From a virus, in IMG/VR virus record IMGVR_UViG_3300024520_000160, positions 1-42,898 of that record: 42,898 nt of DNA; one strand, written 5' to 3'. Positions 3,219 through 41,557 of the stretch are shown in pieces. The stretch's first letter is position 1, and each line of letters opens with the position of its first letter. Under the pieces are notes generated by a model. That model was given only the letters and a program-made list of their open reading frames with translations. It made no database searches and was not told where the DNA came from. The position numbers and the translations under genes were made by a program.

Positions 3219-4827
3219 CACCGAAGTGGGGGCGATGACAGTAGCGCCAACGGTCAAAGTTAGCGACTTGCAAGCGTCTAACTCGTTCGCAAGCCCCGCC
3301 AATGCCGCTATCTATGACGGCGACAAGTTTTTTGGCGGGTTCGGTGCGACTAACGTATTTGAGATCGACTATTGGACGCTTCGGGAGCGGTCCGCACAGT
3401 TGTTTACCGAAAATCTATACGCGCGTGGGCTCATACGGCGGATAATTACGAATATAATCAATACCGGATTAGGGGTGGAATCAAGCCCCGATGAGTCAGT
3501 AATTGGCGTGCCCGATGACAGCTTGACTGACTGGCAAGAGCAAGTCGAAAATTTGCACGCTATTTGGTCGAAATCCCCTAAAGTGTGTGATTATCTCGGC
3601 AAGAGCACGTTCGGGGAGCTCCAAAAAGAAATATACCGGGAATCGTTGGTCGAAGGCGACATATTGATCGTTCTTCATATCGACGAAAAGACCGGATTTC
3701 CGAAATATCAACTTGTGAGCGGTAGTCTAGTGGAAACGCCACAATTTGATTTCGATGACGAGCGAAATATTAAGCACGGTGTTGAGCTCGACGCCGAAGG
3801 GCGCCACGTGGCGTATTGGGTAACCCAAGACGAAGGGTCCCGAAGGGTGCCTGCATACGGCCCGAAATCCGGTCGCAAGGTCGCATGGTTATTCTACGGT
3901 ACGGACAAGCGCAAGGATGACGTCCGCGGGCAACCTATTCTATCATTGGTACTTCAAAGCCTAAAAGAAGTAGATCGCTACCGTGATGCGGCGGTACGTA
4001 AAGCCGTTATTAATGCCATTGTGGCAATGTTCGTCAAAAAAGACTTGGACAAGCCAGGTTCGTTGCCCATGACGGGCGGCGCGGTCCGCAAGGGTGCGGG
4101 TACAACCGCGGACAACACAGGTACCGAGCGCACCTTTGACATTGCGGAGCACGTGCCCGGGCTATACTTTGAAGAGCTACAAACTGGTGAAACGCCCGTC
4201 CCCTATTCGACACAAGGTACCGACGTCAATTTTGGTGATTTTGAAGCGGCGATTATTTCGGCAATTGCTTGGGCTAATGAAGTGCCCCCCGAAATCCTAC
4301 AATTAGGCTTTTCGCACAATTATAGTGCTTCCCAAGCGGCTACAAATGAATTCAAAATTTATCAAAATATGGAGCGCACCCGAATCGGTGACGGCGCATT
4401 ACAACCGGGCTTTATTGAGTGGCTAGTATCGGCCGTGGCGCTCGCTAAAATAACCGCTCCGGGCTTTTTAGAAGCTCGGTTTGACCCTATGAAGTGGGAT
4501 ATTTTTGGGGCTTGGGTTATGACGGATTGGTCGGGCGCTATCAAGCCCAGTGTGGATATAGCCAAGCAGTCCAAAGGTTACAAAACTATGGTAACCGAAG
4601 GTTGGGCAACTAACGAGCGGTCAAGTCGTGAGCTTACAGGTACCAAATTCCGGAAAAACATCAAAAGACTTAAAAAAGAAAATGAGCTCAAAGCAGAGGC
4701 GCTCCGTCCCTTGCTAGAAATCCAAAACGAATTTAGTCAACAGGGCGGTGACGCCCCGGTAGACGTAGTTGACGCCCTTTCAAGTGCGGTTGAAGCACTT
4801 GAAGACATGACAGTAGAAAGCGGGTAA
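3205..4827 (+). CDS. portal protein (lambda gpB family)
   Basis: Predicted 540-aa subunit of the dodecameric portal ring through which DNA is packaged and ejected. Length equals the lambda gpB class (533 aa), and family-like segments can be seen: an early YWTLRERSAQLFTENLYARG, the G-x-E-S-P turn LGVESSP, EIYRESLVEGDILIV, GQPILSLVLQSLKEVDRYRDA (the conserved helix before the tunnel loop) and the PPEILQLGFSHNYSASQAA segment typical of lambda-type portals. GGAGG at 3194-3198 sits six bases before the ATG. It follows terminase and gpW as in lambda, although here the next canonical gene (protease) is displaced by seven extra genes. Confidence 0.92.
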   Translation: MVENNTEVGAMTVAPTVKVSDLQASNSFASPANAAIYDGDKFFGGFGATNVFEIDYWTLRERSAQLFTENLYARGLIRRIITNIINTGLGVESSPDESVIGVPDDSLTDWQEQVENLHAIWSKSPKVCDYLGKSTFGELQKEIYRESLVEGDILIVLHIDEKTGFPKYQLVSGSLVETPQFDFDDERNIKHGVELDAEGRHVAYWVTQDEGSRRVPAYGPKSGRKVAWLFYGTDKRKDDVRGQPILSLVLQSLKEVDRYRDAAVRKAVINAIVAMFVKKDLDKPGSLPMTGGAVRKGAGTTADNTGTERTFDIAEHVPGLYFEELQTGETPVPYSTQGTDVNFGDFEAAIISAIAWANEVPPEILQLGFSHNYSASQAATNEFKIYQNMERTRIGDGALQPGFIEWLVSAVALAKITAPGFLEARFDPMKWDIFGAWVMTDWSGAIKPSVDIAKQSKGYKTMVTEGWATNERSSRELTGTKFRKNIKRLKKENELKAEALRPLLEIQNEFSQQGGDAPVDVVDALSSAVEALEDMTVESG

Positions 4828-4830
4828 ATA

Positions 4831-5091
4831 ATGGCTTTACCGGTCGAAGTAGATATTACGTTGAATACTTGGACAATAGTGGCGACCAACGTCCAGATTG
4901 GCAATGTATGGATTATGGAGCCCGGGGCCAAATATGCCCACACATATGTAGCAACGGGGGCGGCGGCGCCCTTGGCTACTGTTGACGGGGCGCCAATGCC
5001 GGAGCCGGGGCTTCCAATATCGGTAGACGTTGCGGCGGATATTTATGTCAAAGCGCTCGGCCGGGCTGGAAAGGTATCGGTAGCGGTATGA
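4831..5091 (+). CDS. small structural protein of unknown function
   Basis: An 86-aa protein with no recognised family. It is rich in beta-forming and small residues (VEVDITLNTWTIVATNVQIG, then VATGAAAPLATVDGAP and a C-terminal VDVAADIYVKALGRAGKV). It starts three bases after the portal stop and overlaps the next gene by four bases (ATGA), so it belongs to the same transcript and probably the same structure as the following six genes. A capsid decoration or fibre-base role is possible, but this is only positional inference. Confidence 0.6.
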   Translation: MALPVEVDITLNTWTIVATNVQIGNVWIMEPGAKYAHTYVATGAAAPLATVDGAPMPEPGLPISVDVAADIYVKALGRAGKVSVAV

Positions 5092-6077
5092 CCCAAAGCA
5101 ATAATAATCTAACCATAGGTAATGTACCGGTTGGGTCGGGCTCCGGAGCGGCTTTAATAGCGGCTATACAGGCGAGCGCGGCGGCCCAAATTGTAGCGAT
5201 TAACGCGGCCAGCGCGGCTGAGATCGTGGCATTGAATGCCAATAGCGCATCGGAAATAGTGGCGGCGGAAGCGGCGGAAGCGAGTGCCAAAGTATCGGCG
5301 GGCGCCCTTGCAGGCGCCGCCCTTGGTGAGTATGGTTATAGCAACCTCCGCGACGACTTTACGGCCACAATTTCGAGCACAACCGAAATCGATTTAACGA
5401 GCTTGCCCGCAGGTCTCACCGTCGATGAGACCCGTATCGTAGCGGTTGGATTGCGACCAAACGCGGCGGCCGATGATTATGATTGGGTGTATCTGCGGGG
5501 TAGCGGCGATCTTGTCGTATCATACGCGGCGGGTACCATCACCTTTTCAAGTGCCGTGCTTACCGTAGCGGACCACGAGGCGGCCGTGTGGATTGAGGGC
5601 GTCGGCAAGTACGACGTGACCGGTATCGACGCTACAAAGCGCCTTCAAACGCGCGACGAGGCATTGACAACCGATACCCGTAGCGAGCGTGTTGAAGAGA
5701 TCGACCCCATCGACGCGCGCGGGCAAGCGGACACCCTTTATGATGTGACCAATATCGTAGACGGTACCTACTACGTTTATGTATCGATGGATACCTACCG
5801 CAAAGGGTTCTTTCAATTGGAGCTCAATGGTGGTTCGGGTACTGTGACAATTAGCATTCAAGGCACGTGTCAAGATGAGGGGGTTGCGGCGGCCTCGAGG
5901 ACGTATCAGGATATTGGGTCGGCTACATTTGGATCGGCCAGTTGGACCGCCGACGCGATACTTGCCGATAATGCCGAGAAATTGGCCGGTTACACCTATT
6001 TACGAATTACAATTGTCGCTTCAACGGGCGCCGCCGACGACGCCGACGCGACTATCTACGGCGTGAGGTTGTACTAA
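5088..6077 (+). CDS. virion protein with hendecad coiled-coil stalk and beta-rich head
   Basis: A 329-aa protein. Residues about 19-75 are extremely alanine-rich and contain three successive 11-residue repeats (ASAAAQIVAIN, AASAAEIVALN, ANSASEIVAAE), the signature of a straight, probably trimeric coiled coil. The rest is beta-rich and Asp/Thr/Gly-rich, as in phage fibres and knobs (for example GTYYVYVSMDTYRKGFFQLEL and a final YGVRLY). No enzymatic motif is visible. It sits in the block between portal and protease, so it is best read as a head-attached fibre or spike, though the attachment site is inferred. Confidence 0.6.
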   Translation: MTQSNNNLTIGNVPVGSGSGAALIAAIQASAAAQIVAINAASAAEIVALNANSASEIVAAEAAEASAKVSAGALAGAALGEYGYSNLRDDFTATISSTTEIDLTSLPAGLTVDETRIVAVGLRPNAAADDYDWVYLRGSGDLVVSYAAGTITFSSAVLTVADHEAAVWIEGVGKYDVTGIDATKRLQTRDEALTTDTRSERVEEIDPIDARGQADTLYDVTNIVDGTYYVYVSMDTYRKGFFQLELNGGSGTVTISIQGTCQDEGVAAASRTYQDIGSATFGSASWTADAILADNAEKLAGYTYLRITIVASTGAADDADATIYGVRLY

Positions 6078-30279: not shown

Positions 30280-32418
30280 TCAGTCCTTCCGAAATCTGTA
30301 ACCGCGCCAACCGCCCGCGGCACGTATTGGCCACCCTATACACCACCATATAGCCGCCATCATTATGGCTTCCATTTCTTCAATGTTCCCAAAGCCCTTG
30401 ACTACTTCACAAACCGGCTCATCGTGCACGTGCATAACTACGGGGTATCCGCATTGTTCAAGGCGTACAAGTGCCGTGGCGAGCACGTCACGGGCAACCG
30501 CTTGGGTTATATTTTCGACAAATTTTCCGCCCCAACTTTCGAGCCGCACCCAACCGACCGCGCCCTTCGTGGAATCGGTATTGTGTCCCATATATGTGAT
30601 TTTGAACGATGGGAGCTTAGCAAGGCGGTGAAACGTTGGGTGAAGGCGGGGCTTGTGATACGTCAACTTGCGGCCGCTTGGAAGGGTGCAAAGCAACTTG
30701 TCATCGATGACCACAAAGGAAAGGGAGCGCACGTCATAGCGCTTCCCGGGGTTACTTATAGCATTTACAACGGCGCCTTCAACACCGTAGCGCTCCGGGA
30801 TAAAATCCCACGTTTTACCGATGCGGCGGTATTGATCGCCCCAAAATTCGACTATTGCCGGGGAGTCGTCTCGCCATTTTAGGATATTTTTCTTTATTTC
30901 CCTGTCATCTCTAAAATACTTATCGGCCCCAAACGCCTTCCAAGCTCCAATCCATCCTTGATACCCGCTCGCCAATTCGGGCACTTTCCCAAACGGCTTG
31001 CGGTGTTTGTGGTGTTGACCGGTTTGTTTTCTGTGTTCAATAAATTTCTCAAACGGCACGCCCGTGATTTTCGAGGCGCACATCTCATAGATTTTGCCGT
31101 GTGTCCGAAATACGTTTATGCGCCACTCTTCACCGGCCAGCATTGCCAATACGACCGCTTCGATGGCGGAATAGTCCGAACATATAAGGTCACGCCCCGG
31201 GCCGGCCACGAAAAGCCCCCGTACACACCCCCCAACGGTCTCAAGTGCGTTGCCATACTTTGCCTCAACCCGTTCAAGGGAGCGCGTGGCGATGACGCCC
31301 AGGGCGGTCTCGACTTCGATTATATTCCAATCCGGTATTGTGTTCGGGCCACTTGACTTTAGATTTTGTGGTTGCGCCCCGCCCGCGCTCCAACGTCCAG
31401 TTCGTGACGCCCCGCAATACGTAAAAAGCCCCCGGAGCCGCCCATCGGGTGACAGCCTTCGTTTGATGGCTTTGAGTTTGAGCACGGCGGCCGAATTGAG
31501 CGCCAAGCGTATTTCAAGAGCTCGACGACATTGAGGCGACAAGTCGTCACGCTCCAAAGCGGCTTCAACTGTCTTTTTCTGCATATTGGGCAAGCTCAAA
31601 CCGTTGGTAGCCAACCACACCCTAAACGTGGCCACTTCCGCCGCCGCTTGCACTTTGCCCGCGGTGAGCGTAACAAGCTCCCGTGTGTATTTAATGGTGC
31701 ATTGGCGGACTATTTCGAGGCAATTTGCAAGCCCTTCCAAGTCGATGGCCACACCCCGGGCGTTAACCCGTTGATCTAGTTTCCACACTTCGAGCTCAAA
31801 CGGCGGTAGCTCCGGGATGCGGTCGGATGCGGAGCGCTCCGCTTTGATGTCGGTTATGTTGTACCCGTACAAGAGCGGGCCGTCTTTGGGTTCTTGGTGT
31901 GGGTATATGCGCTTGCGAGGGTCTTTTTTCGTCGGGTTGTGCGGTTCGCTAAATATCTTTAAAAGTCGGCCCCCATCGGTGTCTTTGAGTATTGGCGCTT
32001 CGACCGCTTTGGCCATTAAGTCAAGCCCCCCGGGTAACCCGTGAGCACGCGCTTTGGCCGATGTGTCCCGTAACTGGTCAAGCGGTAGCGGTGGCCAACC
32101 CATACGCCCGTAACATACTTTGAGCCATATTTGGTATTCAAAAAACGAGTTCACCGCTTCAAGTATTCCGCCGCATTTGACGTGCCAAAATAGGTCATAG
32201 GGCGGTGAGTCATGTGGTGTCCATAGGCGCTCCCCGGAGCCTATATCATACGCAAGAGAAAGTAGGCGTGTCGAAGGGTGCCCCGCATAGGCGCACGTCC
32301 CCACGGCGGGCAATCCGGGCTTACCCGTCGACTCGGCGATAGGAACCCATCGAAGGCGGACCGGGCACCAATACCGGCCCGCTTCCGAATAGGTTTCAAA
32401 GTCAAATTCACCTTTCAT
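30280..32418 (-). CDS. DNA polymerase I-type (family A) with 3'-5' exonuclease
   Basis: A 712-aa replicative phage polymerase. The exonuclease domain has Exo I DFETYSE (residues 6-12), Exo II AVNSFFEYQIW (about 88-98) and Exo III YGYNITD (184-190). The polymerase domain has motif A LICSDYSAIE (Asp415), motif B HRKPFGKVPELASGYQG (about 472-488) and motif C VMHVHDEPV (His665-Asp666-Glu667). No 5'-3' exonuclease domain is present. I start at the Met ten residues into the open frame (32418), because Exo I follows at once and this overlaps the upstream stop by 11 bp like its neighbours. It sits with SSB and nuclease genes in one operon. Confidence 0.95.
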   Translation of the reverse strand: MKGEFDFETYSEAGRYWCPVRLRWVPIAESTGKPGLPAVGTCAYAGHPSTRLLSLAYDIGSGERLWTPHDSPPYDLFWHVKCGGILEAVNSFFEYQIWLKVCYGRMGWPPLPLDQLRDTSAKARAHGLPGGLDLMAKAVEAPILKDTDGGRLLKIFSEPHNPTKKDPRKRIYPHQEPKDGPLLYGYNITDIKAERSASDRIPELPPFELEVWKLDQRVNARGVAIDLEGLANCLEIVRQCTIKYTRELVTLTAGKVQAAAEVATFRVWLATNGLSLPNMQKKTVEAALERDDLSPQCRRALEIRLALNSAAVLKLKAIKRRLSPDGRLRGLFTYCGASRTGRWSAGGAQPQNLKSSGPNTIPDWNIIEVETALGVIATRSLERVEAKYGNALETVGGCVRGLFVAGPGRDLICSDYSAIEAVVLAMLAGEEWRINVFRTHGKIYEMCASKITGVPFEKFIEHRKQTGQHHKHRKPFGKVPELASGYQGWIGAWKAFGADKYFRDDREIKKNILKWRDDSPAIVEFWGDQYRRIGKTWDFIPERYGVEGAVVNAISNPGKRYDVRSLSFVVIDDKLLCTLPSGRKLTYHKPRLHPTFHRLAKLPSFKITYMGHNTDSTKGAVGWVRLESWGGKFVENITQAVARDVLATALVRLEQCGYPVVMHVHDEPVCEVVKGFGNIEEMEAIMMAAIWWCIGWPIRAAGGWRGYRFRKD

Positions 32419-32689
32419 TAATTTCCGGGTGTTTTTCGAGCAATTCAATTAACGGACCAATTGCGATAAAATGGCGGGCCACAACCGACCATTTATTTCG
32501 TCCAAAATCGCGAGCAATACCGTGTTTTAACGCTAATTCATAACCCATGAATTTACCGTCATCGGGCTTAAACATAGGTTTGATAAAGGTTACAAAGTCT
32601 TCTTTTACCAGGCAATACTCGTTATCAAAATCTTCAATAAGTATGTAAGTCGAATGACCCTTCATACCCGTCTTTGTGTCTTCACCCAT
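32408..32689 (-). CDS. small unknown protein in replication operon
   Basis: A 93-aa protein starting at an ATG that overlaps the SSB stop (TGATG). A GTG three bases upstream is possible. The sequence is of mixed alpha/beta type (STYILIEDFDNEYCLVKEDF, GYELALKHGIARDFGRNKW, HFIAIGPLIELLEKHPEI). No family is recognised. It probably acts in replication or nucleotide metabolism judging only by its neighbours. Confidence 0.6.
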   Translation of the reverse strand: MGEDTKTGMKGHSTYILIEDFDNEYCLVKEDFVTFIKPMFKPDDGKFMGYELALKHGIARDFGRNKWSVVARHFIAIGPLIELLEKHPEINER

Positions 32690-33639
32690 CACACGCCCCT
32701 CTTGGCGGCTTCAATTTGAGCGTCATTGTAACCAACCGTCACGAGTTGATCGCGAGTATATGCAACCCCTTGGATAGTTATGAGCTCCGGGCCCGGAGCG
32801 GGTGGCGCGGGCGGCGGAGCGGTGAAGCTTGGATCGGGCGTCACGCCTGCAAACATTGGCGCGGATATTGAGCCCGGCATTTGTATGGGGGCACCCGCCG
32901 TGGGTATTGAGCCCGGCAACCCTGGAATAGTAACGGCCCCTGTCACGGGTGGCGCGCTCATTGCGGGCATGCCGGTCAAGGCGGGCATGCCACTGGGCGC
33001 CAAGGGCGTGGCGCTTGCGCCCATGGGTAGGGCGGCCACGGGTAGGGCGTTAAATGCGGCCGTAGCGTCGGGACCCGCTTGCATTTCTTCACCGAAGGCC
33101 ACAAACTGAATTGCATTATAGTTGAGATAGACGCCCGGGTTGCTTTGCTCTTCATTACCGACCGCGCTCCCAAGGATGCGAACGTAGAAACCCCGTTTGA
33201 TACTTTGGGGATCGGTTAGTACGCGGGAAGCGTCTTGGCCGTAGCACTTCGGGGCAAAACTACCCGAAAAACCAAACACGATATTACCCGGATAACCTTC
33301 ATGGTCGCAATGTCGGCGCCCTTTTTTATCGACGGCCGTTGAATCGCCGTCTTTATACTTCCACGCGAAGTCTGGCCGCTGTACTTGCCCGTTGGCGTCG
33401 AATAATGTCGGAAATGATAACCGCGCCGCCTCTTGTATTGTGGCCATTAATGCGGGTAACCCGGGGTCTGTTTTGGGTATCGCCAACCCCATGAAATAAC
33501 GAATTGTTGGTTGACCTGCATTGGGTCCGCGTTTGATGACAAGCGGCGCCCCGTCGTGGTCTTTTGTTTGGGCTTCAAAACATGATCCCGCAACTAAACG
33601 CCCTATCGGCGTACAAAACTCTTTTCGTTCTTTAGGCAT
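32689..33639 (-). CDS. ssDNA-binding protein, DUF2815 / T7 gp2.5-like
   Basis: A 316-aa protein. Residues 1-195 match the DUF2815 OB-fold ssDNA-binding family (TPIGRLVAGSCFEAQTKD, GFYVRILGSAVGNEEQSNPG, VYLNYNAIQFVAFGEE). Residues about 200-285 are an unusually long Pro/Ala/Gly/Met-rich linker, and the end ITIQGVAYTRDQLVTVGYND resembles the short helical tails of related phage proteins. The strong acidic tail of gp2.5 is absent. Start ATG 33639 has GGAAGGAAG upstream. It overlaps the nuclease gene by eight bases. Confidence 0.8.
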   Translation of the reverse strand: MPKERKEFCTPIGRLVAGSCFEAQTKDHDGAPLVIKRGPNAGQPTIRYFMGLAIPKTDPGLPALMATIQEAARLSFPTLFDANGQVQRPDFAWKYKDGDSTAVDKKGRRHCDHEGYPGNIVFGFSGSFAPKCYGQDASRVLTDPQSIKRGFYVRILGSAVGNEEQSNPGVYLNYNAIQFVAFGEEMQAGPDATAAFNALPVAALPMGASATPLAPSGMPALTGMPAMSAPPVTGAVTIPGLPGSIPTAGAPIQMPGSISAPMFAGVTPDPSFTAPPPAPPAPGPELITIQGVAYTRDQLVTVGYNDAQIEAAKRGV

Positions 33640-34777
33640 TTTTAAACTTCCTTCCTATGGCTTCCATATCGTGTGGTAGTAGGTAACGTTTACCGGATTT
33701 CACGGTTGTTAGGGCTTCCACCATATCTTGCGGTATGCCCGCATCGATGGCTTGTTTAACGGTTATAGGTTTCTCTTTTGTGACCTTCACGTCATATAAC
33801 GCCCCGATCGCTTTTAACTCTTCAACGCCCGTGGCCCATTCGCGTTTGGAGCCTTTGGAGCGCATTTCCCATTGGGGTACGTTTTTACCCTGTTTAAGGA
33901 GTGATTCTATTTGTTGCGACACTCCCGCGTGACGGTACTCAATGGCTTCCTTGGCACGCGTCAAGTATTGGAGTTCACGACCAAGTTGCTCCGGGCTAAG
34001 GTCACACAGTTGGGGCACTTCAACGTATTCAAATGCTGACATTGCCGCGTTATTCGCCGCCCCGCATCCATAGCGCGCTCGACAAAAGCGGCAATGGGGG
34101 CCAGTCATAACGGTTGGAGTATTGCCTAAGGCACGGTTGGCCGATGCGTTTAGGCGAGCTTCAAACGATTGTAGGTCACCCGCCTTGAATTGCCAAGTAT
34201 GTACAGGCCAACCGGGCCGATAACTTCGGGGTTGTACAATGCGTATGTCTATAAATTTGGGCTTTATGCCGTTTGAGACTATACCGCTTGCGTAGCACAG
34301 TAGTTGCCAATTGGCGTACGCTTCAACGGCTAAAAACCCGTATTTTAGATCCCATATATGCAAAATCCCTGTGACTTCGTTGAAGTACCAGCAATCGCAG
34401 GTACCAAAGCACACATCATGCACCTTAGGGATTTGAAGTTTGTCTTCTATGGCAAAGTTTTTGCCGTGCTCGCAACCTGTTGATACTATTATCACGTCCC
34501 GAACGTACAAAAGTGCACCGTCGAAAATCGCATCGGTTACTTTGACACCGTGAAAACTGTACTTGCCGACGTATTTGATGCGCAAGTTTTCAGGGTCTAA
34601 AGTGCGGTCATTCGCCCAATGGTAGATCAAATCGGCCGCTAATTCATGGCTACACAAGCCTTCATTCGCCGCGTCTTTTTTGGACGTGTCGGGTACTCGC
34701 GCTTCGAGCATAATCGAGCCTTCACAATGCACCCAACGCCCGCTACTTGACGGCGCCGCTATTGAGTGTTCAGCCAT
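33632..34777 (-). CDS. DUF2800 RecB/Cas4-like nuclease
   Basis: A 381-aa PD-(D/E)XK nuclease of the DUF2800 family, which is often found next to DUF2815 and a family A polymerase in phages. The core motifs are GTCDCWYF (Asp128), ILHIWDLKYG (Asp143-x-Lys145) and NWQLLCYASG (Gln158). Cysteines at residue 18 and in HCRFCRARYGCG form the four-cysteine iron-sulphur-like cluster seen in Cas4/AddB-type enzymes. It presumably processes DNA ends for recombination or maturation. It starts 19 bp inside the upstream methyltransferase gene. Confidence 0.82.
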   Translation of the reverse strand: MAEHSIAAPSSSGRWVHCEGSIMLEARVPDTSKKDAANEGLCSHELAADLIYHWANDRTLDPENLRIKYVGKYSFHGVKVTDAIFDGALLYVRDVIIVSTGCEHGKNFAIEDKLQIPKVHDVCFGTCDCWYFNEVTGILHIWDLKYGFLAVEAYANWQLLCYASGIVSNGIKPKFIDIRIVQPRSYRPGWPVHTWQFKAGDLQSFEARLNASANRALGNTPTVMTGPHCRFCRARYGCGAANNAAMSAFEYVEVPQLCDLSPEQLGRELQYLTRAKEAIEYRHAGVSQQIESLLKQGKNVPQWEMRSKGSKREWATGVEELKAIGALYDVKVTKEKPITVKQAIDAGIPQDMVEALTTVKSGKRYLLPHDMEAIGRKFKNA

Positions 34778-35367
34778 ATTATAAGCTCCGGTATTTTGTG
34801 GGGTTGGCTTGCCAATAGTCCGATACTAGGTAAGCCCACTTTCGTACAAAGTTCGTTTAGCCCTTCTTGGGTGCGGTATTTATCGTCGAAAGTGCCCGCA
34901 TATTGAATGAATTCTGGGAATGACATCGGCGCCACGGCCACGGGTTCGGGCGGCGGCGGCGGCGGCGGTTCGGTCGCTACGGGTGCGGCCGCGGGCGTGA
35001 CGGGTGTCGCCATTGCCGCCCGGAGCTCCGCTTCAACGCCCGGTATTGCGTCTTTATCGCCACCCCGCCGATACATCCAAGTCCCCGCCCGCGCGGTACA
35101 CTTTTTATTCCCGTTGTGTATGCGTGCATCCCACGGAAGCCCCGCGCTATCTACCATCACGCCATTAACAGGGCGCGGCCAATCCGCCGCCACGGGATCA
35201 GGGGGCGGCGGGGGGTCAATAATGACCTCATTGGTGGCGCCCATTGCGGGCGGTTTGTTGACGATTACTTCTTTAACGGGCTCGCCTGCAATCTTCAAAA
35301 GAAGATCACTTGCGGCACGTAACGCATTCGTATCAGTCGGGTCTACTGTAACTCTAATTTCTGCCAT
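34759..35367 (-). CDS. internal-start product of the methyltransferase fusion gene
   Basis: An in-frame ATG at 35367 (MAEIRVTVDPTDTNALRAAS) is preceded by AAGGA seven bases upstream, as good as the signals of the real starts here. It marks the junction of the methyltransferase and the C-terminal domain. The short product would be 202 aa. It could have been an independent gene whose upstream stop was lost, or both forms may be made. Expression is inferred from the ribosome binding site only. Confidence 0.5.
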   Translation of the reverse strand: MAEIRVTVDPTDTNALRAASDLLLKIAGEPVKEVIVNKPPAMGATNEVIIDPPPPPDPVAADWPRPVNGVMVDSAGLPWDARIHNGNKKCTARAGTWMYRRGGDKDAIPGVEAELRAAMATPVTPAAAPVATEPPPPPPPEPVAVAPMSFPEFIQYAGTFDDKYRTQEGLNELCTKVGLPSIGLLASQPHKIPELIIWLNTQ

Positions 35368-36219
35368 TATTTTTCCTTTTTGTTCGAAGCAAGCGAATTT
35401 GCCTGCGTCGTATAGTTTTTGGAGTTCTTTTCTTACGGGTACTTTTGAGACTTTACGGTATACTACTTCGGTTCGTTTTTTGCTTTTGCGGTTTTTACCA
35501 TTCGCCGCCGACATAATAGAGCTAAACTCAAATTTTTCCCAATTGGCTGGAATAGATACTTTGACATTGTAACAAGATAAAATAAACGACCCGTCGATAC
35601 TGTCTAGCGTATCGACTAATTGGGAGAATTGCTCAATACTATATTTATGTTTATAGTTTTGGTCGGTGCCCGGATATGGTGGGTCAACGTAAAAAAACGA
35701 TTGAGGCGAATCACATTGCTGAATACATTTTATTGCGTCGACGTTACTTATTGCTATAGGCATCATGCGGTCAAGGTATTCGGGTAAACGCGTTATTTTA
35801 TTTAACCAAGTAACAGACAGATTTCTACCGAATAAACCGCGCCCCCATCCCCTGCCAAACACGTTTCCGAAACTTTGTTGACTATTGATATAATACCGTC
35901 TAGCACGCTCTAAATCGTCACAATCAAAATTTTTGGCGATCCTGTACTCTTCCTCAGAATAGGGCGTCAACTGTAATTGTCGGCATAGCTCCGGGCCGTT
36001 GTCGCGCAATTGACGGTAAAAATTAACAAGCTCGCCGTCTAGGTCATTTATGACTTCGCGGTAGTGGTCCCCATTGGTCACGTCGGGCCACGGTTTTGCG
36101 AACAATATCGCCGAGCCACCCGCGAAAGGTTCCACGTAAACAGTGTGTTTCGGTATCAACGGCACAATTTTATGTGCCATACGCTGTTTACCGCCATAAT
36201 AGCTAATCGGTGGTTTCAT
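34759..36219 (-). CDS. D12-class DNA adenine methyltransferase fused to a phage C-terminal domain
   Basis: A 486-aa protein. Residues 1-280 form the class D12 (Dam-like) adenine methyltransferase: MKPPISYYGGKQ, SAM-binding VYVEPFAGGSAIL, VINDLDGELVNFYRQLRDN and catalytic FFYVDPPYPG (179-184). Residues 286-486 are a separate region with Pro-rich spacers and a segment PWDARIHNGNKKCTARAGTW that is common in phage proteins of unknown role. I start at ATG 36219 with AAAGGAAA just upstream and not at the longer frame start. It may protect phage DNA from host restriction, but the target site is unknown. Confidence 0.85.
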   Translation of the reverse strand: MKPPISYYGGKQRMAHKIVPLIPKHTVYVEPFAGGSAILFAKPWPDVTNGDHYREVINDLDGELVNFYRQLRDNGPELCRQLQLTPYSEEEYRIAKNFDCDDLERARRYYINSQQSFGNVFGRGWGRGLFGRNLSVTWLNKITRLPEYLDRMMPIAISNVDAIKCIQQCDSPQSFFYVDPPYPGTDQNYKHKYSIEQFSQLVDTLDSIDGSFILSCYNVKVSIPANWEKFEFSSIMSAANGKNRKSKKRTEVVYRKVSKVPVRKELQKLYDAGKFACFEQKGKIMAEIRVTVDPTDTNALRAASDLLLKIAGEPVKEVIVNKPPAMGATNEVIIDPPPPPDPVAADWPRPVNGVMVDSAGLPWDARIHNGNKKCTARAGTWMYRRGGDKDAIPGVEAELRAAMATPVTPAAAPVATEPPPPPPPEPVAVAPMSFPEFIQYAGTFDDKYRTQEGLNELCTKVGLPSIGLLASQPHKIPELIIWLNTQ

Positions 36220-36236
36220 GTTTCCTTTATTTTTGG

Positions 36237-36265
36237 TTGACGGGCCCCAAGATACGAGGTACACA
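36237..36265 (+). promoter_or_regulatory. candidate rightward promoter for the helicase operon
   Basis: TTGACG at 36237-36242 and TACACA at 36260-36265 are separated by 17 bp. The -10 is weak (3 of 6), but the pattern matches the candidate at 98-126. It would start transcription about 14 bp before the helicase ATG, in agreement with no visible Shine-Dalgarno sequence. Confidence 0.3.
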
Positions 36266-36277
36266 CAGCTGTGTCAA
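36249..36277 (-). promoter_or_regulatory. leftward promoter of the methyltransferase-polymerase operon
   Basis: On the minus strand TTGACA (36277-36272) and TATCTT (36254-36249) are separated by exactly 17 bp. Transcription would start near 36242, leaving a leader of about 23 bases that contains the AAAGGAAA ribosome binding site. This is the best promoter in the window. Confidence 0.6.
36263..36274. promoter_or_regulatory. 12-bp palindrome, candidate shared operator
   Basis: The perfect palindrome ACACAGCTGTGT overlaps the -35 of the leftward promoter (last three bases) and its spacer, and the end of the -10 of the rightward candidate. A dimeric repressor could switch off both operons here. 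The TetR-like gene at 39034 is a possible partner by inference only. Confidence 0.45.
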
Positions 36278-36285
36278 CATAAATT

Positions 36286-37971
36286 ATGATTTTACGCAAC
36301 TACCAGAAAGACGGTAAAGATCGCATCGCTTCCGCTTGGCATAATGGACATAAAAACGTCTTATATGTCATGGCCACGGGCGGCGGTAAAACCGTTCTAT
36401 TTTCCGACATTGCCGCCGAAAATGTGGGTGGCACGTGTCTAATTGCTCACCGTCAGGAGCTCATCGGGCAAATGAGTCTCGCGCTTGCAAGGCGGGGGGT
36501 CCGCCATCGTGTGATTGGGCCCACTAATGTAATCAAATACATAGTACGTCTACAAATGGACGAATTTGGTAAAGCTTTTTATGATCCCATGGCCCCTTGT
36601 GGTGTTGCCGGTGTTGACACAATTATACGTAGAGGCGCCGCTTTTATACGATGGCTTGACACCGTGACGCTTTGGATACAAGATGAAGCGCATCACGTCC
36701 AAACAAATAATAAATGGGGTAAAGCCGCCGCGCTTATGCCCAATGCCCGTGGGCTTGGCGTCACGGCCGAACCATCACGTGCGGACGGTGGCGGGCTTGG
36801 GCGCCACGCGGACGGGGTCTTTGATGTCATCGTTGAAGGACCCGGGGCCCGGGAGCTCATAAACGACGGGTGGCTAACAGATTATCAAGTCGCATGCCCA
36901 CAAGGTGATCTTGACCTATCTAAAGTTGAATTGTCTACCGCAACGGGAGACTTTAAAAAGCCCCAATTAAAAGCCGCGGTACAACGTTCACAAATAGTGG
37001 GTGATGTAGTCAAAAATTACCTACGTCTTGCGCCCGGCCGACTAGGCATCACATTTGCCGTCGACGTGGAAAATGCGATCGATATTGCCAACAAGTATAA
37101 CGAAGCGGGCGTACCGGCCGCGGTAATATCACACAAGACGCCCGACGCCGAGCGCGCCGAGATATTGAGACGCTTTAAGGCGCGTGAAATATTGCAACTT
37201 GTAAACGTAGACCTATTCGGCGAAGGCTTCGACTTGCCCGCTTGCCAAGTAGTGTCAATGGCACGCCCAACTGAGTCGTTTGGGCTGTATTTACAGCAAT
37301 TCGGTCGGTCTATGCGGCTTTGGCATGACGGCCCAACGGGCACCCGAGCGGAGCGCATGCAGAGCATTGCCACAAGTGCAAAGCCGCATGCGCTCGTTAT
37401 TGACCATGTGGGCAACGTCGAGCGTCATCTACTACCCGACACCCCGCGCCCCCGATCGCTTGATAGGCGTGAGAAGCGCGGCCGCTTGCTACCCGATGAC
37501 GCCATACCACTTAGGGTGTGTCCCGATTGTACCCGGCCATATGAAGCCGTCAAGCCATCGTGTCCCTATTGTGGCTATATATTTGTGCCAACGCAACGGA
37601 GCGCCCCGGAATTTGTCGACGGTGATTTGGAGCTCTTGGCGCCCGACGTGCTCGCCAAGCTACGGGGTGAAGTGGCCGCCGTAGATAAAGACCCCGAAGT
37701 GTACCGAAGTGAACTGGCCGCCAAGTACGTGCCAATCATAGGCCAGTTAGGCCACGTGAAGCGCCACGTGAAGCGTCAAGAGTGTCAACAGGGACTTCGA
37801 GCCGTGATGCAATGGTATGGCGGTATACAACGCGCCGAGGGGCGTCAAACAAACGAAGCGCAACGGCGGTTTTTTCACCGCTTCGGAATAGACGTGCTCA
37901 CCGCCCAAACGCTTGGATCGAAGGAAGCGGTTGAGTTGAGTGAGAAAATCACAATGGAGTTGATTAAATGA
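36286..37971 (+). CDS. SF2 DEAH-box helicase
   Basis: A 561-aa superfamily 2 helicase/ATPase with the classic motifs: an N-terminal LRNYQKDGKDRI, Walker A VMATGGGKTVLF (30-36 region), Ib-type LIAHRQELI, Walker B IQDEAHH (133-136 DEAH), motif III-like LGVTAEPSRADG, and motif VI QQFGRSMRLW. A C-terminal zinc-binding CPDCTRPYEAVKPSCPYCGY is present. It is related to the phage repair/replication helicases near family A polymerases. The ATG at 36286 lacks a ribosome binding site, but the first residues already match the family start. It heads the rightward operon. Confidence 0.92.
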   Translation: MILRNYQKDGKDRIASAWHNGHKNVLYVMATGGGKTVLFSDIAAENVGGTCLIAHRQELIGQMSLALARRGVRHRVIGPTNVIKYIVRLQMDEFGKAFYDPMAPCGVAGVDTIIRRGAAFIRWLDTVTLWIQDEAHHVQTNNKWGKAAALMPNARGLGVTAEPSRADGGGLGRHADGVFDVIVEGPGARELINDGWLTDYQVACPQGDLDLSKVELSTATGDFKKPQLKAAVQRSQIVGDVVKNYLRLAPGRLGITFAVDVENAIDIANKYNEAGVPAAVISHKTPDAERAEILRRFKAREILQLVNVDLFGEGFDLPACQVVSMARPTESFGLYLQQFGRSMRLWHDGPTGTRAERMQSIATSAKPHALVIDHVGNVERHLLPDTPRPRSLDRREKRGRLLPDDAIPLRVCPDCTRPYEAVKPSCPYCGYIFVPTQRSAPEFVDGDLELLAPDVLAKLRGEVAAVDKDPEVYRSELAAKYVPIIGQLGHVKRHVKRQECQQGLRAVMQWYGGIQRAEGRQTNEAQRRFFHRFGIDVLTAQTLGSKEAVELSEKITMELIK

Positions 37972-40330: not shown

Positions 40331-40678
40331 ATGATGACACGTAAAATTTATAAATTAGGTGAAACGATACCGGCGAAACAACCATTTATCGTATATGACG
40401 AACATGAAACACGCATAGTGATACAACATGAAGACTTTGAGATCGGTGCGGCTCCATTCCCACCACGATATGAGCTCATAGACCTACCAGAATTGCCCCC
40501 CAAGCCAAAATCCCGTGAATTAAAAATAGGCCATTGGTACGTAATGAGACAAAAGGATGATAATGCGATTTATCAATACTGCGGTAAAAATAAAAAAGTC
40601 AAAGACGTGGGCGGTGAAAAATGGGACCGTTGTGAAGAATACGAAATTGGTGACGAGTGGGTAAAGGTGAAACGATGA
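40331..40678 (+). CDS. tandem paralogue A, unknown
   Basis: A 115-aa protein, the first of three tandem paralogues. It contains YKLGETIPAKQPFIVYDE, a middle KIGHWYVMRQKDDNAIYQYC and the shared end EYEIGDEWVKVK. The triple motif G-x-WY-x-M, a Y-x-G turn and EIGDEW suggests a small beta-sheet fold. The function is unknown. It starts at the first of two adjacent ATG codons (40331), after GGGGTGAAG. Its last codons supply the ribosome binding site of the next copy. Confidence 0.6.
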   Translation: MMTRKIYKLGETIPAKQPFIVYDEHETRIVIQHEDFEIGAAPFPPRYELIDLPELPPKPKSRELKIGHWYVMRQKDDNAIYQYCGKNKKVKDVGGEKWDRCEEYEIGDEWVKVKR

Positions 40679-41007
40679 GACGAATTAAAGTGGGTGACGT
40701 GTTAGAAGCAAACCAATGGTACATTTGTTATGGTAAATTCCGAACAGTGCTCACTCAAAACCACACGGAAACAGTTTTCAAGTCGATAACTGATCCTGTT
40801 TACGAATTGGATTTCATAGGGTGCCCCGAAATGCCGCTACAACCCGAAGTCGGCAAGTGGTACATAATGACGGACCGTTACGACGGAAATGCGCTTTTGT
40901 TACGGTACAACGGCGACGACCGCCCAACCGTAGATTTAGACGGCGATGACGCAGCAATGCCCGAAGAATATAAAATTGGTGACGAGTGGGTAAAGGTGAA
41001 GCTATGA
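40675..41007 (+). CDS. tandem paralogue B, unknown
   Basis: A 110-aa protein related to paralogues A and C over its whole length: IKVGDVLEANQWYICYGKFR, GKWYIMTDRYDGNALLLRYN, DDAAMPEEYKIGDEWVKVKL. It starts at ATG 40675 (ATGA overlap with A). A longer frame beginning at GTG 40657 only reads the end of gene A. It shares an exact 47-bp stretch with C. Confidence 0.65.
   Translation: MRRIKVGDVLEANQWYICYGKFRTVLTQNHTETVFKSITDPVYELDFIGCPEMPLQPEVGKWYIMTDRYDGNALLLRYNGDDRPTVDLDGDDAAMPEEYKIGDEWVKVKL
40906..40952 (+). repeat. 47-bp exact direct repeat, copy in gene B
   Basis: This stretch is identical to 41238-41284, 332 bp downstream, while the flanking sequence differs at several positions. It lies within the YNGDDRPTVDLDGDD coding segment and marks recent duplication or gene conversion. 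Confidence 0.9.
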
Positions 41008-41339
41008 GAAAAGGTAAGAAATACAAAGCGGGTGAAACGATACCGGCCGATACTATGTTTATAAATTATCGTAGTGACGGGACGATAGTAATAACAAAAG
41101 CACCCTATCCAACCGAAATCTATTCAAGCATAAACATTTATAAAGTTTTAGATTTCGGGCACCTACCGTCAAATCTAGAAATAGACCATTGGTACATAAT
41201 GACCGACCGCGACGATGGCGGTGCGCTCTTGTTACAGTACAACGGCGACGACCGCCCAACCGTAGATTTAGACGGCGATGACGCGGCAATGCCCAATGAA
41301 TACGAAATCGGCGAAGAGTGGGCAAGGGTGAAGTCATGA
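41004..41339 (+). CDS. tandem paralogue C, unknown
   Basis: A 111-aa protein, the third copy, starting at ATG 41004 (ATGA overlap with B). It reads KAGETIPADTMFINYRSDGT, HWYIMTDRDDGGALLLQYNG and EYEIGEEWARVKS. Protein similarity to B is very high in the second half, and the N-terminal part is closer to A (KAGETIPAD against LGETIPAK). This suggests that B and C were separated or homogenised recently by recombination. Confidence 0.65.
   Translation: MRKGKKYKAGETIPADTMFINYRSDGTIVITKAPYPTEIYSSINIYKVLDFGHLPSNLEIDHWYIMTDRDDGGALLLQYNGDDRPTVDLDGDDAAMPNEYEIGEEWARVKS
41238..41284 (+). repeat. 47-bp exact direct repeat, copy in gene C
   Basis: This is the second copy of the exact repeat found at 40906-40952. 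Recombination between the two copies would delete 332 bp and leave one hybrid gene in frame or near frame, so copy number may vary between relatives. Confidence 0.9.
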
Positions 41340-41557
41340 AAAAATTTCTAATGACCTGCATATGGTTTCACTTACTCGGCACAATGGCGGTCTTATCCTG
41401 TGTGGCTATATCGCTCGTAACGACCGAACCGACCATATACGAGCCCGATTCGGTGTTGTTGGCAATGGTTATCTATCAAGTGTTCCAATTGGTAGTTGAT
41501 GTAATTTTCATAGGGAGGGAGATGCAACGTAATGAGAAACCTACAAATAGGGGATAG
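41336..41557 (+). CDS. two-transmembrane holin candidate
   Basis: A 73-aa protein with two membrane helices (about residues 4-27, FLMTCIWFHLLGTMAVLSCV, and about 41-62, VLLAMVIYQVFQLVVDVIFI) and charged ends. It lies directly before and overlaps the endolysin gene by 26 bp. Size, topology and position match class II holins, although it could also be an antiholin or other lysis membrane protein. It starts at ATG 41336, in a ATGA overlap with the last paralogue. Confidence 0.65.
   Translation: MKKFLMTCIWFHLLGTMAVLSCVAISLVTTEPTIYEPDSVLLAMVIYQVFQLVVDVIFIGREMQRNEKPTNRG

Follow-up and report, generated by a model that had tools for sequence, protein, structure and literature searches.

A predicted D12 DNA methyltransferase joined in frame to a conserved protein of a phage recombination operon, with a candidate second start at the joint

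The sequence studied here is a virus record of 42,898 bases, analyzed over its whole length (hereafter, the window). Its minus strand contains a single stop-free frame at 34759-36219, which runs from an ATG at 36219 to a stop at 34759 and encodes 486 amino acids (aa); the mechanically delimited open reading frame of this gene starts farther out, at a GTG at 36264. The N-terminal part of the protein is a predicted methyltransferase (MTase), and the C-terminal part is a 202-aa PWDARIH protein (phrog_11133, residues 285-486), for which we use the working name TAIL. The preliminary description of this locus, that is, a D12 methyltransferase running without a stop into a region of about 200 aa, with an ATG and an AAGGA signal exactly at the joint, agrees with the features in Table 1. 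The GC content is 42.8% in the MTase half, the lowest among 23 segments checked, and 57.3% in TAIL.

Table 1. Features of the fused gene and its surroundings (window coordinates)
Feature	Position	Strand	Remarks
D12-class N6-adenine DNA methyltransferase half (predicted), residues 1-284	35368..36219	-	PFAGG (31-35), DPPY (179-182), PF02086
TAIL, 202 aa, phrog_11133, in frame with the methyltransferase	34759..35367	-	stop 34759-34761
Internal in-frame ATG at the joint, residue 285	35365..35367	-	
AAGGA ribosome-binding site of the internal ATG	35374..35378	-	predicted unpaired stretch
Next-frame TAA sharing its last base with the internal ATG (TAATG); probable remnant of a stop/start overlap between two genes	35367..35369	-	
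AAAGGA ribosome-binding site of the first ATG (36217-36219)	36223..36228	-	
Promoter-like TTGACA-17-TATCTT, just upstream of the fused gene	36249..36277	-	consensus match only
Divergent DNA helicase (phrog_16); usual left neighbor of TAIL genes	36286..37971	+	
Exonuclease, phrog_69 (family called DUF2800 in relatives); 19-base overlap with the TAIL stop	33632..34777	-	
Gp2.5-like single-stranded-DNA-binding/annealing protein (phrog_7011)	32689..33639	-	
DNA polymerase (phrog_17)	30280..32448	-	

An antisense open frame of 221 aa (window 34907-35572, plus strand) spans the joint and TAIL, and is probably a by-product of the GC-rich TAIL codons. Elsewhere in the window, neighboring ORFs of about 115 aa at 40331-41339 contain internal repeats, with stretches 85-91% identical (extra blastn matches, window 40634-41344), and look like tandem paralogous genes.

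Residues 7-223 match PF02086 (MethyltransfD12) with 67.7 bits, compared to the cut-off of 22. The DPPY and PFAGG motifs are both present and are invariant or nearly so among the relatives; we take DPPY to be the catalytic motif and FxGG the SAM motif of D12 methyltransferases. The solved relatives found by sequence include DpnII 1 adenine methyltransferase and chains annotated as 'DNA adenine methylase'. By homology, residues 1-284 are thus predicted to constitute a D12-class N6-adenine DNA methyltransferase. The earlier label 'Dam-like' applies to this protein in the broad sense of the PF02086 match but not in the narrow one, because the score against TIGR00571 (dam), 66.7 bits, falls short of the NCBIfam cut-off of 114.85. 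The counts of palindromes in the window do not reveal the MTase target (for GATC, 103 observed and 131.9 expected). Across the whole window, CCGG (186 observed against a Markov expectation of 311), CTAG (38 against 72), CATG (87 against 128) and CGCG (231 against 333) are all rarer than expected, perhaps reflecting avoidance of host restriction.

To collect relatives of the MTase, we scanned with nine aligned D12 enzymes, which gave at least 600 stretches and at least 571 relatives, the best 80 of which were kept. Among these best 80 of at least 571, the free-standing phage MTases of phrog_56 (L100-L106) are 43-60% identical to the window protein along the whole MTase half, and several of them share with it the C-terminal KVPVR..IQKLY..G..CF stretch (KVPVRKELQKLYDAGKFACF in the window). 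Their frames stop 8-17 residues beyond the equivalent of residue 278 (278 or 279), the last shared residue; in the window, six residues after FACF are followed by Met285. Apart from ending in a stop a few residues beyond the shared stretch, the free-standing enzymes differ from the window gene in that no TAIL was found in their contigs. Within about 4 kb of the MTase loci, tblastn detected TAIL only in the window's own virus and in none of the others, and none of the eight contigs of the closest free-standing MTases, most of them short fragments, contains TAIL.

The C-terminal part of the protein matches the phrog_11133 profile at 2.9e-16, and the PWDARIH-type segment pointed out in the preliminary description is located at residues 362-368. 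The TAIL set that we assembled comprises 95 loci, 84 of them distinct, from viral contigs (126 stretches, with the best 80 of 95 relatives kept), bacterial genomes (18 stretches, 8 relatives) and named phages (7 of 10 records read). A DUF2800 exonuclease is encoded downstream of TAIL in 90 of the 95 loci, a helicase is encoded divergently upstream in 88, both flank TAIL in 85, and a recognizable SSB is present downstream in 74. The DUF2815/Gp2.5-like proteins have been described as binding ssDNA in phage Enc34 (PMC5686142). The TAIL of the window, lying between the divergent helicase and the DUF2800 exonuclease, occupies the place that served as our working criterion for the family. TAIL is usually a gene of its own, and in most loci it begins with a Met, after which come a short hydrophobic segment and a helix, similar to MAEIRVTVDPTDTNALRAASDLLLKIAG in the window; the start of each gene was picked by the best SD, so that the SD strength at these starts is partly a matter of construction. 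Close free-standing TAILs (L016, L025, L069 and L185) begin at the Met equivalent to the joint ATG, and the internal ATG therefore corresponds to the start that the TAIL family normally uses.

When modeled alone, TAIL is predicted to begin with a helix and a proline-rich stretch, followed by the PWDARIH module and, at the C-terminus, by a helical part (mean pLDDT 83, pTM 0.38). No PDB relative was found by fold (best E 2.2), no Pfam family scored above chance in 46 TAIL members, and a PDB sequence search with TAIL returned just low-complexity chains and, over 24-27 residues, designed 'Pizza' propellers. The 18 matches to TAIL in BFVD at E<=0.001 are uncharacterized or unnamed viral proteins and one protein called RecT. 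We rejected the 'RecT' label on TAIL relatives (L005, L006 and L011), given that no RecT profile matched the B8b protein; in public records, this label apparently spread by propagation, with Silvanus citing B8b as its source. TAIL-like proteins are also found in records named as diatom viruses (Pseudo-nitzschia and Skeletonema; BFVD A0A678W3H4 and A0A1B1IHW7), which may come from phages of associated bacteria, and one TAIL chain (L022:3584-5008) contains two PWDARIH-like segments. The PWDARIH module also exists outside the phage operon: in a Burkholderiales MAG (L184:2792-4618), a 608-aa protein combines a T5orf172 domain with a PWDARIH segment and Sel1 repeats, and its gene neighborhood lacks a DUF2800 exonuclease. 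This different architecture was excluded from the count of start-codon fusions.

The internal ATG at the joint is preceded by AAAAAGGAAAAATA, so the window gene has the features of a two-start gene, namely, an in-frame internal start with a ribosome-binding site and a C-terminus that the two products would share. Taken alone, the ribosome-binding site at the window joint is unremarkable compared with chance: of the 1205 ATGs in the window, 13% equal or surpass it in anti-SD energy, and by SD the joint ATG ranks in the middle, fourth among the 10 in-frame ATGs inside the gene. Where the joint lies is a different matter and is not due to chance: it is there that the free-standing MTases end and the free-standing TAILs begin. 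The full-length model has a confident MTase fold, with low confidence for most of TAIL and for the joint (281-286), where this is what would be expected of a flexible link.

The fusion of two genes by loss of a stop, one of the two origins considered in the preliminary description, fits these data well. The search for relatives with the two parts as separate genes, recommended there, recovered both free-standing MTases and free-standing TAILs; their ends meet at the joint, where the base composition shifts, and the TAA that overlaps the internal ATG is as expected if the two genes once overlapped stop-to-start. An hmmsearch of 7147 ORFs from the 95 loci found a D12 MTase beside TAIL in the window's virus alone, the sole match being L013, which is the same contig as L002. 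The latter differs from the window at 1 position in 11,458 bases, with 100% printed identity over another 18.5 kb. Being near-identical to the window, it is not an independent case and may stem from the same sample. The MTase-TAIL fusion is accordingly known from one virus lineage only, in two near-identical contigs, and the internal start of the MTase form was likewise seen in that one lineage.

TAIL is fused to other upstream proteins as well, and an Rv2179c/RNase-H-like exonuclease is joined in frame to TAIL in 12 of the genes read. In Enterobacter phage Mulvp2 and in L043 and L061, an Rv2179c-like exonuclease (PF16473, in a scan that covered Mulvp2 and L061) precedes TAIL in one frame, and all three genes have Met187 at the joint. 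At codons 181-195 of this fusion, synonymous identity at invariant degenerate residues reaches 6 of 7 codons, versus 46 of 141 elsewhere (Fisher p=0.008, for an interval chosen after the sequences were seen), and the 11-codon stretch with the highest synonymous identity in the gene is the one at the joint. In nine Vibrio phages of about 60 kb, an RNase-H-like exonuclease is fused to a distant TAIL (hhalign against the main family: 94% probability, E 1.5e-7, 54 columns), and in four relatives, 19-40 other residues are found where the exonuclease sits. These 13 Vibrio genes were taken from the top and the spread of 415 matching records, 28 of which cover at least 80% of the query; L191 (Vibrio phage VP58.5) was left out of the set because its exonuclease is in another gene context. 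All 13 have an in-frame ATG (11 genes) or GTG (2 genes) at the joint, with an anti-SD energy of -5.4 to -6.6, located 3-12 residues ahead of a conserved QEF motif and behind linkers that differ. These starts rank first or second among the internal starts of each gene, and starts of such strength occur in 75 of 4285 random 12-codon windows of the nine exonuclease fusions, a comparison to be read with the qualification that the Vibrio and Mulvp2 joints were chosen by eye after viewing the sequences and that related phages are not independent.

In addition, in a Rhodospirillales MAG (L181), a 124-aa protein of unknown kind is fused to TAIL at an ATG behind GGAAGAGGA. A candidate read-through fusion in L066 was not retained, since the start typical of the family lies at 3617 and has an SD of its own. 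In public annotation, the exonuclease-TAIL genes appear as exonuclease, RNase H-like or hypothetical protein. In Vibrio phage 13VV501A (L190:1312-1812, 4318-5484), two DUF2800-annotated genes flank the exonuclease-TAIL gene, and the same arrangement is seen in several relatives. The exonuclease-TAIL genes of Mulvp2 and the Vibrio phages resemble the window gene in the C-terminal family, in the location before the DUF2800 exonuclease and in a joint that is in frame and coincides with a start codon preceded by a ribosome-binding site, and differ from it in that the N-terminal enzyme is an exonuclease rather than a methyltransferase and, in the Vibrio phages, in that TAIL is distant.

The Vibrio joints keep the start codon and a strong ribosome-binding site despite the varying linker, and for this reason, production of both a long and a short protein seems to be the best reading of these genes. 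Repeated loss of the stop with the TAIL start retained would make most sense if the phages still need free TAIL and the fused enzyme is of use to them or at least tolerated. By analogy, the fused gene in the window probably makes both the joined and the short protein. The earlier suggestion that one gene yields two proteins therefore holds up through the other TAIL fusions, with their retained joint starts and the synonymous peak of the Mulvp2 type, but not through the MTase fusion itself.

It appears unlikely that only the fused protein is made, with the internal ATG and its ribosome-binding site persisting as an unused relic of the separate gene. Such a relic would be compatible with the middling SD energy at the window joint and with the restriction of the MTase form to a single lineage, in which conservation of the start cannot be shown; however, the other TAIL fusions keep the SD and the start while the linker protein changes, and it is at the joint of the Mulvp2-type fusion that synonymous sites are most conserved. 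We consider it rather improbable that a sequencing or assembly error, with one base gained or lost, merged two genes that are truly separate and overlap at TAATG, because the second contig has an identical joint, viral contigs scanned for joints of a different length yielded just that second contig, once, and other in-frame TAIL fusions come from named, separately sequenced phages. These observations are to be set against an A-rich joint, the next-frame TAA overlapping the ATG, and an MTase frame that can be checked by homology only as far as residue 278. Finally, ribosomal frameshifting or RNA-polymerase slippage on A runs, yielding mostly the fused protein and a minority that stops at the TAA and restarts, has in its favor the A runs on both sides of GG and the TAA in the +1 frame at the joint but is very improbable, given that A runs of five are short, no slippery heptamer was recognized and the other TAIL fusions have no such A runs.

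The explanation that we favor, and consider fairly probable, is that a D12 MTase gene was inserted before TAIL, its stop was lost, both products are made, and TAIL tethers the enzyme. This scenario unites several observations: the frame is single, each half is matched by an ancestral type of separate gene, the joint lies where those genes end and begin, the start signal persists, and similar fusions with other enzymes recur. In this scenario, the MTase gene would have been inserted between the divergent helicase and TAIL, at the head of the recombination/replication operon, and, after the loss of its stop, the frame would have come to run on through TAIL's own ribosome-binding site and start codon. 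Ribosomes would start at both sites, producing MTase-TAIL (486 aa) and free TAIL (202 aa). The linker-rich TAIL, whose gene stays beside those of the DUF2800 exonuclease and the Gp2.5-like SSB, may then tether the MTase to the phage recombination/replication complex, a role that we infer from gene order. The tethered MTase could methylate phage DNA as it is made, for example, against host restriction, and free TAIL would leave the ordinary complex functional as well as diluting the fusion protein. Since MTase-TAIL is represented by one virus lineage only, its function is also something that we infer.

The preliminary description raised the possibility that DNA methylation and the PWDARIH domain are functionally tied. 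Such a special tie does not find support: the partner enzyme changes, and the partners of TAIL include an exonuclease and unknown proteins. Judging from gene neighborhoods, the link of TAIL appears to be to the recombination/replication operon rather than to methylation. More tentatively, TAIL could possibly be an adaptor belonging to a widespread phage recombination operon, with its gene serving as a socket: varied enzymes (methyltransferase, exonuclease and others) would be placed in frame ahead of it, always with the TAIL start kept. Each phage would then produce the free adaptor together with a chimera that brings the enzyme to phage DNA during replication or recombination.

There are precedents for genes of this design. 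Gene 4 of phage T7 encodes both the 63-kDa primase-helicase and the 56-kDa helicase, the short form being initiated inside the gene at a start that has a ribosome-binding site of its own, and resembles the window gene as a phage replication gene with a second in-frame start that gives a shorter protein devoid of part of the N-terminus (PMC12593628). The T7 case differs in that both products are proven there and proposed for the window gene, that the N-terminal partner of TAIL varies between phages, and that the short product here would be a linker-rich protein. In phage lambda, the Nu3 scaffold is nested at the C-terminus of the C protease. An interaction between C and Nu3 has been described (PMC3224144). 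As proposed for MTase-TAIL, the enzyme is fused in frame to a partner that takes it to a complex, and the short protein is also produced by itself; the difference is that lambda C/Nu3 acts in capsid assembly, as opposed to DNA metabolism. Judged by title, none of the literature retrieved names an MTase-TAIL fusion or a two-start TAIL gene.

Two-start genes are already known; in the present case, one C-terminal protein is combined with unrelated enzymes in different phages, each time at an equivalent position and with the start kept. Annotation pipelines report one long protein for such genes and overlook the short one. If both products exist, these fusions would provide a handle on an unnamed protein family that adjoins a common phage exonuclease/SSB pair, and the partners of TAIL could be found from whatever is fused in front of it.
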